Shown piece by piece: positions 28,737-37,756 of a stretch of DNA of 64,000 bases. The DNA is from Oleiharenicola sp. (lineage in GTDB: Bacteria; Verrucomicrobiota; Verrucomicrobiia; Opitutales; Opitutaceae). Made by a program: the position numbers and the translations under genes. The notes under the pieces were generated by a model. It was not told where the DNA came from. It saw only the letters and a program-made list of their open reading frames with translations, and ran no database searches. The stretch is from positions 1-64,000 of the forward strand of contig JANYDW010000037.1 of NCBI GenBank assembly GCA_025363455.1. Reading direction: 5' to 3'. How positions within the stretch are numbered: the stretch's first letter is position 1; each line of letters begins with the position of its first letter.

Positions 28737-28813
28737 GGACCTTTAGCTCAGTTGGTTAGAGCGTTTCGTTGACATCGAAAAGGTCACTGGTTCGAGTCCA
28801 GTAAGGTCCACCA
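28737..28813 (+). tRNA. tRNA-Val (anticodon GAC), CCA encoded
   Basis: The acceptor stem GGACCTT pairs with AAGGTCC. The D arm is GCTC-AGTTGGTTA-GAGC. The anticodon stem TTTCG/CGAAA encloses the loop TTGACAT, giving anticodon GAC (valine codon GUC). The T arm is ACTGG-TTCGAGT-CCAGT. The discriminator A is followed by a genomically encoded CCA. The gene stands alone between the kinase and recN. Confidence 0.95.
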
Positions 28814-32870: not shown

Positions 32871-33656
32871 ATGAGCGAAAAAAAGCGCTGGTCCAAGAGC
32901 ACCATAATTTTCGGAGGCACCGCCATCTGGGGCCTCCTGCTGGTGGGCTGCGTCATGGTCGACCGGACCGTGATCATGCCGCCCAACATTGCCGGCGCCA
33001 CCTATGTCGGCACCAAGAAGTGTGATGAATGCCACAAGGACCAGACCGGTCACTTTGAGGGGGCGACCCATAGCCGCCTCGCGCTCAAGGACCCGAAGGT
33101 CGGCGACATCGGGTGCGAGGCCTGCCACGGGCCCGGCTCGGTGCACTCCAAGTCAGGCGGCAGCAAGGGCACGATCGTCAATCCCAACACCTCGCCTGAA
33201 ACCTGCTTCACCTGCCACTTGGACAAGCGCGGTGAGTTCAACCTGCCGCACGCCCACCCGGTCCTCGCCGGGAAAATGGGATGCAATGACTGCCACAACC
33301 CGCATAAGGGTCATGTCGTGGCGCGCTCGGGCGCCGAACTGGAAAGTCCCAACGAGACCTGCACGAAGTGCCATACGGCGCAGAAGGGTCCGTTCCTTTT
33401 CAAGCACAATGCCATGACCGAAGGTTGCACCGCCTGTCACAACCCGCACGGCACGGTGAACCAAAAGATGCTGATCTCACGCGATGCCAATCTCTGCCTC
33501 AAGTGCCACCTTGAGCACCCGGCGGTGGCCGGAGACGGCACGATCATGGCGGGCGGTCAGGATCACCGCACCCGCCTGCAAAGCGGCACCTGCTGGATCG
33601 CCGGCTGCCACGAAGATGTTCACGGCTCCAATGCCAGCAAGGCCATGCGTTACTAA
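32871..33656 (+). CDS. Octaheme c-type cytochrome, probable lipoprotein (MtrA/DmsE-like)
   Basis: A 261-residue cytochrome with seven CxxCH haem sites (CDECH, CEACH, CFTCH, CNDCH, CTKCH, CTACH, CLKCH) and one CX4CH site (CWIAGCH), so eight haems. Segments such as YVGTKKCDECHKDQTGHFEG, GCEACHGPGSVH, KMGCNDCHNPHKG and GPFLFKHNAMTEGCTACHNPHGT are characteristic of MtrA/DmsE-family cytochromes, which usually have ten haems. After a membrane segment (STIIFGGTAIWGLLLVG) a lipobox-like LLVGC gives a possible lipid anchor at Cys27. It is first in an operon with an MtrB-type barrel and probably sits in that barrel to carry electrons across the outer membrane. The substrate or acceptor is unknown. Confidence 0.88.
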   Translation: MSEKKRWSKSTIIFGGTAIWGLLLVGCVMVDRTVIMPPNIAGATYVGTKKCDECHKDQTGHFEGATHSRLALKDPKVGDIGCEACHGPGSVHSKSGGSKGTIVNPNTSPETCFTCHLDKRGEFNLPHAHPVLAGKMGCNDCHNPHKGHVVARSGAELESPNETCTKCHTAQKGPFLFKHNAMTEGCTACHNPHGTVNQKMLISRDANLCLKCHLEHPAVAGDGTIMAGGQDHRTRLQSGTCWIAGCHEDVHGSNASKAMRY

Positions 33657-33677
33657 CCCACCCCATCTATTCCGACC

Positions 33678-35888
33678 ATGCATGCCACTCCCTTCCATCT
33701 CCGCCGCAGCGCGGGCATGCTCGCGGGCCTGACACTCGTCCTGTGCATCGCGGGACCCCGGGCCGCCGCCGCCACCAAGGAGGCCGACGCCTTTCCGGTG
33801 TTCGACAGCTACATCAAGATTTCGGGCCATGCGCCCTCGGTGACCGGCAATGCCGCCGCCTACGCCGAGCGTTTCCGCACTCCCGATAGCGGGGCCTATG
33901 GCATCGAGGCCCTGCACCTGAGCAAGGACCTTGCGGATAAGAAGACCCTGGAGATCGACGGCAAGGCCCTGACGGGCGCCGAGGATTACCTGGGAAAGAT
34001 CAAGCTGACCAAGGAAGAGGTCGGCAGCGTCGAGATCGGCTATAAGCGTTTCCGCACCTTTTATGACGGTATCGGTGGATTTTTCCCGCTGAACAAGGCC
34101 TGGATGCCCATGGGCACGCAAGAACTGCACACGGATCGCGCCAATTTCTGGACCGACATCACCATCGCGTTGCCGGACAAGCCCGTGTTCCACGTCCGTT
34201 ACTCCGATGAAATGCGTAACGGGCGGAAAGACTCGACCATCTGGGGAGACAGTGACCAGACCGGCATTCCGATCTATAATGTCGGCAGCCTGAATCCCGT
34301 CACGGCCGACAAGAAGATCGCACCAGCCTATCTCGACCTGGATGAGCACCAGAAGACCCTGTTGGCCTCGGTCACCCACACGGTTGGCAACACCGAATTG
34401 GAGCTGGAAATCGTCAACACCCGCACGGACAGCAACGATACCCGCTGGATGAACCGCTATCCCGGCGAGCTGAAACCCTATCCGCTCCTCCGCACTACCC
34501 CCCCGGCTTTCCTGGTGGATGGCACGCAGGCGAACAACTTCATCACCGGCTATGACGAACAAATCAGCAACGCCGACATCTGGGCCTACACGGGAAAGTT
34601 TGAGACCAAGATCAGTGATCAGCTGACGGTGTTTGGTGGCATCACCTATCAGGACGCTTCGGCCGACATTTCCGGCAACCGCCAGATGACCCTGACTATC
34701 GCGACCGCCACGGGCATCGTCCAGGCTGTGGGTGGATTTGTCGGTGCCGGTGGTCGTCCGCCCTATTCCTACAAGACCAATGCCGGCTCGACTTCGGAAA
34801 AGACCGTCACGGGCAACCTGGGTGTTACCTACAAGCCCCAGAAGGATTTCCGGATCAGCCTGGCGCTCAAGGGTGAGAAACAGGACATGAGCGGCAGCAA
34901 TCTGGTTACCTACAACAGTAACAGCATCGTGCAGGCCACCGGCGTGGTGACCCCGGTGAATGTCGTTGCCCCGAACACCAGCACGCGCAGCGAAAAGCCG
35001 TGGACGCCGGAGCTGGATGTTCGCTACAGCGGCATCAAAAAACTGGCGCTCTACACGACGGTTGACTATCGCTTCGCCAGTGGTGACGAAGTGGGATCAA
35101 GCACCGGTGTGACCACCGGCGGCGGCGCGGCCGCTCCCGTGACCAGCTTCGACAACGTGAAGAACAATCACGCCCACTACAAGGTGGGCGCCAACTGGGA
35201 TGTGTCGTCCCTCCTCACCCTCCGGGCTGAGACCTTCTACAAGGACCATGTCAACAAGTACACCGGTTACAGCACGAGCCTCGGCGGCCGGTACATCCTC
35301 GGCTACCAGTTCCATGGCTACAAGGTGACCGCGATAGTCAAGCCGATGCCCACGCTCCAATTCACCGGCCGTTATGTCGGCCAGATGGGCAAGATGGATA
35401 CCACGCTCGATGCGGGTGATTCATCCGAGAGCATGGACTCGAAGAACCACATGTTCGGCGGCACGATCGATTGGAACCCCAACAAGAATGCCTATGTGCA
35501 GGCCAATGTGAACGTGGTCTTTGCCACCTTGTCTACGGCCTATCCCCGCGCAGGGCTCGCCGCCAACGATGTCCTCCGCAACGCCGACAACGATTACATC
35601 AGCGGAAACCTCATTGCCGGATTCGCGGTCGACAAGATGACGAACGCCCAACTGGAATACACTTATTACCGGGCGAGCAATTATGACCCGGCGGGGCCCC
35701 CGTCGGCCGTGGCCTATGGCGCGGGCGGGAAGGAATACACCGTCACCGTGGGGGTAAAGCGGAACCTCACCGACCGCATGTTCCTCAACGCCAAGGTCGG
35801 CTACTTCGACAGCAAATCCGACACCACGGGTGGCAACACCAACTTCCGCGGACCGCTGGCCTATCTTTCACTCGACTACTCCCTCTAA
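33678..35888 (+). CDS. MtrB/PioB-family outer-membrane beta-barrel of an electron conduit
   Basis: A 736-residue protein with a signal peptide (RSAGMLAGLTLVLCIAGPRAAAA). It has the MtrB/PioB pattern: FDSYIKISGHAPSVTGNAAA, KIKLTKEEVGSVEIGYKRFR, FYDGIGGFFPLNKAW, VFHVRYSDEMRNGRKDSTIW, then many amphipathic strands and the end YLSLDYSL with a terminal aromatic pair. In Shewanella and Rhodopseudomonas such barrels wrap a multihaem cytochrome and let electrons pass the outer membrane. The CXXC seen near the N-terminus of Shewanella MtrB is absent. It lies 21 bases after the octaheme gene, as in mtrAB and pioAB. Confidence 0.87.
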   Translation: MHATPFHLRRSAGMLAGLTLVLCIAGPRAAAATKEADAFPVFDSYIKISGHAPSVTGNAAAYAERFRTPDSGAYGIEALHLSKDLADKKTLEIDGKALTGAEDYLGKIKLTKEEVGSVEIGYKRFRTFYDGIGGFFPLNKAWMPMGTQELHTDRANFWTDITIALPDKPVFHVRYSDEMRNGRKDSTIWGDSDQTGIPIYNVGSLNPVTADKKIAPAYLDLDEHQKTLLASVTHTVGNTELELEIVNTRTDSNDTRWMNRYPGELKPYPLLRTTPPAFLVDGTQANNFITGYDEQISNADIWAYTGKFETKISDQLTVFGGITYQDASADISGNRQMTLTIATATGIVQAVGGFVGAGGRPPYSYKTNAGSTSEKTVTGNLGVTYKPQKDFRISLALKGEKQDMSGSNLVTYNSNSIVQATGVVTPVNVVAPNTSTRSEKPWTPELDVRYSGIKKLALYTTVDYRFASGDEVGSSTGVTTGGGAAAPVTSFDNVKNNHAHYKVGANWDVSSLLTLRAETFYKDHVNKYTGYSTSLGGRYILGYQFHGYKVTAIVKPMPTLQFTGRYVGQMGKMDTTLDAGDSSESMDSKNHMFGGTIDWNPNKNAYVQANVNVVFATLSTAYPRAGLAANDVLRNADNDYISGNLIAGFAVDKMTNAQLEYTYYRASNYDPAGPPSAVAYGAGGKEYTVTVGVKRNLTDRMFLNAKVGYFDSKSDTTGGNTNFRGPLAYLSLDYSL

Positions 35889-35907
35889 TTCACCAACCCA
35901 TAGCATC

Positions 35908-36249
35908 ATGAAATCCACGACCAAGTTAGCCATGGCCGGCCTTGCCCTGGCCTTTGCCACCGGCGCGTCTCGTGCTGCGACCGCCGATGAGAACTGGGAA
36001 AACAGCTGCGCCTCCTGCCACGGGGCGGACGGCAAGGGCCAGACCAAGCAGGGCAAGAAGCTCAAGCTACGCGACTACACCGACCCGAAAGTGCAGGCCG
36101 AGTTCAAGGACGACGAGATGCTCAAGGTCATCCTGGAAGGCGCAAAGGACAAGGTCTCCGGGAAGGAGCGCATGAAGGCCTTCAAGGAAGAGATTCCGGA
36201 GGCCGAGGCCAAGGAACTGGTCGCCTACGTCCGCAAGCTGAAGAGCTGA
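35908..36249 (+). CDS. Small monoheme cytochrome c
   Basis: A 113-residue class I cytochrome with a signal peptide (MKSTTKLAMAGLALAFATGASRAAT). One haem site lies in WENSCASCHGADGKGQTKQG. The probable axial Met is in the segment ERMKAFKEEIPEAEAKELVA, near the C-terminus. The mature protein is lysine-rich (KQGKKLKLRDYTDPKVQ). It is the third gene of the conduit operon and is a good candidate for the soluble periplasmic carrier between the inner-membrane heptaheme cytochrome and the outer-membrane complex. The ATG at 35908 lies 20 bases past the barrel stop; an earlier in-frame ATG at 35830 is inside the barrel gene. Confidence 0.88.
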   Translation: MKSTTKLAMAGLALAFATGASRAATADENWENSCASCHGADGKGQTKQGKKLKLRDYTDPKVQAEFKDDEMLKVILEGAKDKVSGKERMKAFKEEIPEAEAKELVAYVRKLKS

Positions 36250-36256
36250 AGCGCCC

Positions 36257-37756
36257 ATGAGCGCCGAGCCGACCTCCCCGCCACTGCCCGGAGCCGCGGC
36301 GCGATCGCCTTTCAACAACTGGATCACGGCCATCGGCGCCGTGCTCGCGATCGGCTCGTTGTTTTCGTTCGCGCTGCTGACCTGGATGGACCTGACGGGG
36401 TCGCACAAGAATCCCTACCTCGGGATCTTCACTTACATTGTCGCGCCTGGTTTTCTAATCACCGGGATAGCGATCATGTTTTTCGGCGCCTGGGCGCAGC
36501 GCCGTTGGGAGATCAAGCACGCCGCCACCATGCCGGACAAGTGGCGGCTCGACTTCTCCAATCGCGCGCAGCGCCGCCTGCTGGTCCTCTTCGGCAGCGG
36601 CGGCGTGATCTTTCTCCTCTTGAGCGCCTTTGGCAGTTACCAGTCCTATCACTACGCCGAGTCCACCCAGTTCTGCGGCCAAGTCTGCCATTCGGCGATG
36701 AATCCCGAGTTCACCACCTATCAGCGCGGGGCCCACGCGCGAGTGGACTGCGTGGAGTGCCACGTCGGTTCCGGGGCCACGGCCTTTATCCAGGCCAAGC
36801 TCAACGGCACGCGCCAGCTCATCGGCTTCACCCTCGACAATTACCGGCGGCCGATTCCCACGCCGGTCCAGAATCTCCGGCCCGCGCGTGAGACCTGCGA
36901 GAAATGCCACTGGCCCGAGAAGTTCCATGGCAACATCGACCTCACCTTCGACCACTATCTCTCCAAGAAGAACAACGACTCCTACGGCGTCCGCATGCTG
37001 CTCCATGTGAACTCCGGCCGGCCGGGCAGCCCGCTCGGCGGCATCCACTGGCACGTCAACCCCGACAGTGCGGTCGAGTATTATGCGGCCGACGAGAAGC
37101 GCCAGGACATCGTCTGGATGCGCGTGACGAACAAGAAGGACGGCTCCAGCCGCATCTATCGCAACCAGGAGTTCAAGGGCGATCCCCCGGCTGGCACAGT
37201 CCGGACGATGGATTGCATGGATTGCCACAACCGGCCCGCCCACGTGTTTCCCACGGCCAATGACGCCGTCGAGAAGTCGATGGCCCTCGGCACGCTCAGC
37301 ACCAAGCTGCCCGCGATCAAGCGCACGGCCGTGCAGGCCATCATCCAGAAGGACATCACCACCGGCACCGAGGCCCCGGGCAAGATCGCCGAGTTTCTCC
37401 GCGGAAAATATAAGGACGAGGCGGAGCTGCCGGCCGCCATCGCCGAGGTCCAGAAAATCTACGCGACGACTATCTTCCCCGAACGCAAGGCCGACTGGCG
37501 GGTCTACCCGAGCAACATCGGCCACAAGGACTGGGCCGGATGCTTCCGCTGCCACGACAACAAGCACAAGTCGGATAAGGGAGAGACCGTGAAGGCCAGC
37601 GATTGCAACTCCTGCCACACCATTATCGCCCAGGGCAAGGGCCCGGAACTGGCGGCGCTTTCCTCCGCCGGTCTCGAGTTCAAGCATCCCGATGGAACCT
37701 ATGACGAGGAACTCTCCTGCGCTGACTGCCACAACGGCGGCATCCAGGGAAAGTAG
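36257..37756 (+). CDS. Membrane-anchored heptaheme NapC/NirT-like cytochrome c
   Basis: A 499-residue protein with three N-terminal membrane segments (TAIGAVLAIGSLFSFALLTW, YIVAPGFLITGIAIMFFGAW and LVLFGSGGVIFLLLSAFGSY). Seven CxxCH sites follow: CGQVCH, CVECH, CEKCH, CMDCH, CFRCH, CNSCH and CADCH. The front haems (YAESTQFCGQVCHSAMNPEF, GAHARVDCVECHVGSGA) match the NapC/NirT quinol dehydrogenase family. It would oxidise or reduce menaquinone at the inner membrane and pass electrons to periplasmic carriers. Extra haems in a C-terminal domain distinguish it from tetraheme CymA/NapC. It starts 8 bases after the monoheme gene and ends the operon. Confidence 0.88.
   Translation: MSAEPTSPPLPGAAARSPFNNWITAIGAVLAIGSLFSFALLTWMDLTGSHKNPYLGIFTYIVAPGFLITGIAIMFFGAWAQRRWEIKHAATMPDKWRLDFSNRAQRRLLVLFGSGGVIFLLLSAFGSYQSYHYAESTQFCGQVCHSAMNPEFTTYQRGAHARVDCVECHVGSGATAFIQAKLNGTRQLIGFTLDNYRRPIPTPVQNLRPARETCEKCHWPEKFHGNIDLTFDHYLSKKNNDSYGVRMLLHVNSGRPGSPLGGIHWHVNPDSAVEYYAADEKRQDIVWMRVTNKKDGSSRIYRNQEFKGDPPAGTVRTMDCMDCHNRPAHVFPTANDAVEKSMALGTLSTKLPAIKRTAVQAIIQKDITTGTEAPGKIAEFLRGKYKDEAELPAAIAEVQKIYATTIFPERKADWRVYPSNIGHKDWAGCFRCHDNKHKSDKGETVKASDCNSCHTIIAQGKGPELAALSSAGLEFKHPDGTYDEELSCADCHNGGIQGK

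Follow-up and report, generated by a model that had tools for sequence, protein, structure and literature searches.

Positions 32871-37756 of the window, the stretch of 64,000 nucleotides (nt) from Oleiharenicola sp. (Verrucomicrobiota) analyzed here, carry four contiguous genes on the + strand that probably encode a trans-outer-membrane conduit through which the cell disposes of respiratory electrons. As delimited from the list of open reading frames (ORFs) and a scan for haem motifs, these genes encode an octahaem c-type cytochrome related to MtrA but missing haems 3 and 4 (32871..33656, 261 aa), an outer-membrane beta-barrel with a predicted MtrB-like fold (33678..35888, 736 aa), a class I-type monohaem cytochrome c, likely the intermembrane carrier (35908..36249, 113 aa), and an ImcH-like inner-membrane heptahaem cytochrome, likely a quinol oxidase (36257..37756, 499 aa). 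The intergenic gaps measure 21, 19 and 7 nt; for the monohaem gene we preferred the ATG start at 35908 to the GTG start at 35830 given by the ORF finder, which overlaps the barrel gene. The original prediction, made from the sequence alone, had described one tightly packed operon in a verrucomicrobial genome, and we found the same four-gene order in the related loci L030, L031, L033, L036, L046, L047, L052, L054 and L055, while the octahaem protein of the window is placed among Opitutaceae/Opitutae rows on a phylogenetic tree. Its proposal of an Mtr/Pio/Mto-type wire linked to the quinone pool is still the best reading, given the MtrA homology, the MtrB fold and the likeness to ImcH described below, although the ten haems that mark such wires are not all present.

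The octahaem cytochrome is an MtrA homologue that lacks two haems

All identified MtrA, MtoA and PioA proteins are reported to carry ten haems (PMC4245776). Of the eight haem motifs in the window protein, seven are of the CX2CH type and the final one is CX4CH (CWIAGCH, residue 241), just as the original prediction of a shorter, MtrA-like cytochrome had stated. The protein matches PDB 6r2q_A with an E-value of 4.2e-32 (phmmer). We took this chain to be MtrA because the title of the entry reads 'Structure of the Mtr complex' and CX2CH motifs abound in the matched region, and treated the molecule name printed for the match, 'Cystathionine beta-synthase', as an error. The best NCBIfam score was obtained with the GSU2203 model (164 bits, cut-off 325 bits); filing the octahaem protein and the barrel under GSU2203 and GSU2204 was rejected, as these scores, though the best in NCBIfam, are far below the cut-offs. 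These Geobacter families differ in that the cytochrome is a decahaem protein and the GSU2204 type has a CXXCH motif of its own, whereas the window barrel has no haem motif at all.

To place the protein among its relatives, we scanned named genome contigs by means of the family alignment, the octahaem alone serving as query, and kept the best 80 of at least 281 relatives, to which the 16 proteins of the family alignment were added. With ten motif columns in register across 52 proteins with eight motifs and 47 with ten, haem columns 3 and 4 were occupied in 0/52 octahaems versus 47/47 decahaems, and the remaining eight columns in 99/99; L089 (5 motifs, at a contig end), L111 (22), L116 (9) and matches below 100 bits were left out of this count. 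Of the 52 octahaems, 50 end with a CX4CH motif, whereas L066 and L071 carry CX2CH there. In a maximum-likelihood tree, rooted at the midpoint and calculated with the columns of the haem trait kept in, 51 of the 52 octahaems form one branch (support 98/96). Just outside it falls L071, a Luteolibacter row on a long branch, with five Acidobacteriota decahaems in between and a separating fork supported at 96/71, and a single clade for all 52 was not rejected (p-AU 0.362). Judging from record titles, the contig scan's 36 octahaem rows come from Verrucomicrobiota, except L075 (Omnitrophota) and L057 (an unplaced metagenome-assembled genome, MAG). Two further relatives were noted: a protein with 22 haem motifs from a Planctomycetota MAG (L111:9263-11194) matches the octahaem profile with 233 bits, and an Opitutaceae MAG (L083) encodes a decahaem MtrA together with a barrel that passes the MtrB/PioB model TIGR03509 (258 bits). 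The L083 cytochrome groups weakly (83/23) with proteobacterial sequences, perhaps reflecting transfer or a mis-binned contig.

The octahaem protein had also been thought to be lipidated. A predicted lipobox (LLVGC) places the modified cysteine at residue 27 (codon 32949..32951, + strand), 23 residues before the first haem cysteine, and Cys27 is kept in 16/16 family proteins; the motif agrees with an anchor. In a rough test, a lipoprotein-like cysteine was present in 50/52 octahaems and 23/47 decahaems, so a predicted lipid anchor also occurs outside the octahaem branch. The two octahaems that failed are L075, which has no such cysteine, and L060, which has one but whose hydrophobic run is poor in the frame examined.

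The octahaem protein is paired with a probable MtrB-type barrel

Screening of 288 sampled genomes of the phylum detected the barrel in 16, the window's own among them, and octahaem matches at E<1e-100 in exactly the same 16, with weaker partial matches in 17 others; the co-occurrence profile was built from barrel-chosen loci and up to 9 candidates per genome were scored. After merging the identical pair L028/L040, 51 distinct octahaems remained from both sources, and 48 of these are followed on the same strand, within the set distance, by a barrel of the family, which indicates that the pairing is more than chance. One of these barrels (L060) starts 654 nt downstream of the octahaem gene and is split over three frames. 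Two of the three octahaems without an assigned family barrel lie no more than 0.9 kb from a contig end, and the third (L071) has an unassigned 724-aa ORF 22 nt downstream.

An AlphaFold model of the barrel built from 16 relatives was of fair quality (pLDDT 77.4, pTM 0.73) and shows about 26-28 strands, counted by hand. The best PDB match of this model in Foldseek was MtrB (6r2q_B; E 2.3e-11, TM 0.56/0.63, 11% identity), the first of 211 matches at E<=0.001, with TM values of 0.21-0.48 for ranks 2-50 as listed. The first strands of the model are short and a helix (residues 59-66) lies between strands 1 and 2, matching the short first strands and inter-strand helix described for MtrB (PMC7198977). 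Profile alignment with hhalign related the barrel family to MtrB/PioB proteins (97.1%, score 99, 522 columns), to mixed barrels beside other decahaems (98.8%, score 145, 632 columns) and to GSU2204-like proteins (97.9%, score 113, 506 columns), and the GSU2204 model itself matched 1/16 barrels weakly (E 3e-5). We conclude that the barrel is likely, though not proven, to be of the MtrB type: the earlier assignment to MtrB/PioB has some backing from the predicted fold and none from the sequence model.

Several results weigh against a conduit. Searches with the barrel sequence in Pfam, NCBIfam and PDB returned nothing of note, the single protein having no PDB match up to E 10 and the profile one match of E 1.6 that we took as noise, and 0/16 members of the barrel family matched TIGR03509 at E<=1, whereas the positive controls L084 (251.2 bits) and L083 exceeded the cut-off of 240.05. 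The second Foldseek match, a siderophore receptor, has an E-value nearly equal to that of MtrB (3.0e-11), though its TM is 0.36/0.38, and TonB receptor barrels, the negative control for hhalign, also reached 93.9% (score 70, 257 columns), for which reason we kept the hhalign results as weak evidence. The AlphaFold model of the octahaem protein was useless (pLDDT 43.5) and was set aside, so that the cytochrome is no more than presumed to fit in the barrel. Octahaems lacking a barrel could be under-seen in the 288-genome comparison, given the origin of the profile and the number of candidates scored; an ImcH gene was present within the retrieved sequence of only 20 of the 51 octahaem loci (many contigs are short, L047 is counted twice and the L024 gene is on the opposite strand); and we found no experimental study of any member. 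Some of these points would suit an octahaem protein that acts within the periplasm, for instance by storing electrons, next to an unrelated porin: the barrel has no sequence match to MtrB and the pair has no structure. The adjacency in 48/51 loci, the occurrence in the same 16/288 genomes and MtrB as best fold match make this very improbable, and we retain the paired conduit.

In eight relatives, mostly on the Limisphaerales/Pedosphaera side (L057, L059, L062, L064, L066, L068, L069 and L070), the barrel starts with a monohaem domain bearing a C(L/V/F)(R/K)CHG motif, which Pfam identified as PSCyt1 in the 3 tested of the 8. This fusion of a cytochrome domain to an MtrB-like barrel resembles the Cyc2 layout.

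An ImcH-like cytochrome and a likely monohaem carrier are encoded alongside

ImcH of Geobacter sulfurreducens has three transmembrane helices, a CX3CH motif followed by six CX2CH motifs and about 500 aa, within an architecture given as 495-519 aa with a NapC/NirT-like region, and is known solely as a quinol oxidase according to a 2018 survey (PMC6295460). The heptahaem protein of the window has three hydrophobic helices, the NapC/NirT-like region PF03264 and seven motifs, the first CX3CH (CGQVCH) and then six CX2CH, an arrangement also seen in its 7-haem relatives. Compared with a Desulfuromonas homologue rather than the Geobacter protein, it is 39% identical over 463 aligned positions (L124, from a MAG; 6 motifs in the compared frame). 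The earlier label, a heptahaem NapC-like membrane cytochrome, was therefore apt as to PF03264 and the membrane helices, but judging by these sequence features the protein is better named ImcH-like and likely acts as a quinol oxidase. The survey lists one ImcH from Verrucomicrobia and reports no mtrAB or mtoAB beside imcH (PMC6295460), unlike the window, where the gene lies next to an mtrAB-like pair. Such proximity is not unique to octahaem clusters: in L100, a MAG titled Acidimicrobiia, an ImcH-type gene (6 motifs) directly precedes that of a decahaem protein, and the barrel scores 230.6 bits with TIGR03509, just below the cut-off.

The monohaem protein (CASCH; PF13442, PF00034) retains an invariant methionine in 37/37 aligned homologues, near-copies included, and on this basis looks like a His-Met class I cytochrome. 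Cytochromes of this class usually have a high potential.

Some related loci encode additional CbcL-like proteins, which carry 11-13 haems and end in a b-type cytochrome part. Those of L023, L024, L030 and L031 match formate-dehydrogenase-gamma below the NCBIfam cut-off, and with PF01292 (cut-off 30.1 bits) a second L030 protein scored 49.6 bits and passed, while an L040 protein stayed below with 20.7 bits. The 11-/13-haem proteins joining the clusters of L030, L031, L033, L023 and L024 are CbcL-like where scanned, L033 being assigned by haem pattern alone, and L030, L031 and L033 (as well as L023 and L024) may thus combine ImcH- and CbcL-type quinol oxidases with the conduit in one locus. One such CbcL-like query gave no match in the window's genome, in a search without a positive control.

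Proposed electron path and direction of flow

In the path that we propose, the ImcH-type cytochrome would oxidize quinol at the inner membrane, as expected from its family, and the monohaem cytochrome c would ferry single electrons over the periplasm to the octahaem MtrA-type protein, which would be anchored at the inner leaflet of the outer membrane via the Cys27 lipid and seated in the MtrB-like barrel. With the orientation taken over from the MtrAB crystal structure, the N-terminus would be periplasmic and the CX4CH haem, which occupies the column of MtrA haem 10, would lie at the outer exit, from where electrons could pass to, for example, humic quinones or chelated Fe(III) as the acceptor. 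Haems 3 and 4 belong to the N-terminal, periplasmic half of MtrA, and their loss would shorten the wire from ~80 to roughly 60 Angstrom (our own estimate, 7 of 9 steps), still enough to span a membrane of ~40 Angstrom, with little reach into the periplasm; a short reach of this kind would fit a lipid anchor and a diffusing carrier.

A direct exit to such an acceptor is suggested because no MtrC-type surface cytochrome is encoded alongside. As noted in the original prediction, the ORFs of the window include no extracellular MtrC/OmcA-type cytochrome and hence no MtrCAB set, and a search of the genome, rated 94.94% complete so that absences in it are not final, yielded no convincing one either. 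TIGR03507 found just one stretch of 20.9 bits with 2 stops (cut-off 209.3), and PF22113 a single match, a 746-aa protein with 10 haems on contig C60 (L038:8019-10259; 36.1 bits, cut-off 30), which is above the cut-off only together with its neighbours. We rejected this candidate, as PF22113 is unspecific: the window's own octahaem protein scores 33.3 bits. The C60 protein, which by eye has a Cys-rich N-terminal stretch followed by a single hydrophobic helix, no lipobox and a 6+4 haem layout, was taken for a putative inner-membrane cytochrome. In L055, L061, L063 and L065, the octahaem gene is immediately preceded or overlapped by a 9-haem gene, whose product in L055 has an MtrC-like domain above the Pfam cut-off; no homologue of this L055 protein was found in the window's genome, at the same completeness and without a positive control.

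We lean towards outward flow because the inner-membrane partner is ImcH-like, no RuBisCO was found and CbcL-like proteins accompany some relatives. The RuBisCO model had no match in the window's genome at 94.94% completeness and matched 5/14 control genomes, and the CbcL family is a weak pointer, being linked to both directions of flow (PMC6295460). In Shewanella, both monohaem cytochromes of Sideroxydans lithotrophicus ES-1 can accept electrons from CymA and donate them to MtrA (PMC13390432), a result that lends plausibility to a carrier step running outwards; the potential of MtoD is reported to be too high for reducing ImoA (PMC13390432). The direction, left open in the original prediction, is in this way no longer wholly so, though it is still deduced from gene content.

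Electrons might instead enter the cell, as they do in Mto and Pio: donated by Fe(II) or another extracellular source, they would traverse the barrel and the octahaem protein, reach the monohaem cytochrome and end up at a terminal oxidase or in the quinone pool. The gene content is indeed like that of the mto cluster (mtoA, mtoB, monohaem genes and imoA; PMC13390432), and mtrC is absent beside the operon, as it is in some Fe(II)-oxidizing mtr clusters (PMC4245776). Two further points tell against outward flow: a His-Met carrier, if of high potential, would be in keeping with acceptors of high potential or with electrons running inwards to an oxidase, and COX1 has four matches in the genome, one of them a fragment at a contig end. 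Nonetheless, the partner resembles ImcH, in the 2018 survey a quinol oxidase only, and not CymA or ImoA; the genome lacks a RuBisCO match; and some relatives add CbcL-like proteins, for what a family tied to both directions can tell. Inward flow is on balance unlikely.

Export of electrons to one dedicated extracellular reductase, in the manner of DmsEF, rather than general extracellular electron transfer, seems less likely again. The octahaem protein comes near the DmsE model TIGR03508, scoring 155 bits and so falling outside that family (cut-off 192.2), and no reductase gene was recognized among the scanned ORFs around the operon, which were part of the neighbours; beside relatives, the search covered haem proteins, barrels and chosen query proteins only.

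Relation to known conduits

He et al. (2017) described a verrucomicrobial porin gene adjoining that of a periplasmic cytochrome in which eight haem sites are conserved, reported homologues in Opitutus terrae and others, and proposed electron transfer to humic substances (PMC5615132). Systems homologous to those of Shewanella or Geobacter were said to be absent and the porin was termed novel (PMC5615132), and a 2019 paper presented putative verrucomicrobial porin-cytochrome clusters as non-homologous to known ones (PMC6344600). Compared by description, the pair in the window agrees with that of He et al., in which a verrucomicrobial porin with at least 20 predicted strands adjoins a periplasmic cytochrome of eight haems (PMC5615132). 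Most likely, then, the operon is of this type and so probably not new to the phylum. What our analysis adds is the MtrA homology with a loss of two haems, which departs from their account, the lipobox, and ImcH in the operon; section 12 of the paper mentions neither ImcH nor a lipid anchor or a monohaem carrier (PMC5615132), all three of which are predicted for the operon. No paper linking the octahaem type to MtrA was found among titles and abstract openings of open-licence papers, which leaves novelty unproven.

The operon shares with MtrAB of Shewanella (6r2q) the gene pair, eight of ten haem motifs in register and an MtrB-like predicted barrel fold, and differs from it in having eight rather than ten haems, a CX4CH as the last motif, a predicted lipoprotein, no MtrC and a barrel without detectable sequence similarity. 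With Mto of S. lithotrophicus ES-1 and Pio of Rhodopseudomonas it has in common the conduit pair and the lack of a surface cytochrome (PMC6344600), and with mto also a monohaem carrier and a NapC-type cytochrome; unlike in these systems, an ImcH-like protein replaces ImoA/CymA, no RuBisCO was found and the direction is likely opposite. For clusters other than the present type, a 2022 Mtr survey describes a nonahaem MtrA-family protein with a DOMON domain and accessory cytochromes (Group 6 mtrCAB), as well as an octahaem cytochrome named 'ohc' (PMC8805035). Group 6 resembles the window in having an MtrA-family protein with other than ten haems and a monohaem protein in the cluster, and is set apart, by description, by its nine haems and DOMON domain (PMC8805035); a search of the survey for words starting with Verrucomicrob returned none (PMC8805035).

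Taken together, a wider reading is possible, which we advance tentatively and with rather less than even confidence: Verrucomicrobiota and at least one Omnitrophota MAG would possess a separate branch of Mtr wires, in which haems 3 and 4 were dropped once, MtrA is lipid-anchored in most members and the exit haem is CX4CH; many would be fed by an ImcH-type oxidase via a class I monohaem cytochrome, and a Limisphaerales-like sub-branch would have fused a PSCyt1 domain to the barrel, merging carrier and porin. If the conduit works as proposed, eight haems would suffice for an Mtr wire, and a cluster formerly set apart from Mtr would become part of the Mtr family. Members of a common phylum that degrades polysaccharides in soils and lakes could then respire onto humic matter or iron, shifting carbon from fermentation and methane to CO2, an idea of He et al. 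(2017; PMC5615132). Scans that require a ten-haem MtrA or a TIGR03509 barrel would overlook such conduits.

Neighbouring genes

Downstream of the operon, on the - strand, lie two genes for cytochrome c assembly proteins outside the conduit: one with PF01578 (37988..39922, E 5.3e-22), which we take to be CcsA-like, and a ResB-like one with PF05140 (39919..41466, E 2.5e-17), whose true start is probably inside the ORF. The two genes preceding the operon, which by domain scan encode a ThuA domain protein and a sugar-isomerase-like TIM barrel, look unrelated to the conduit. The sole tRNA that ARAGORN reports in the window is a tRNA-Val (gac) at 28737-28813.

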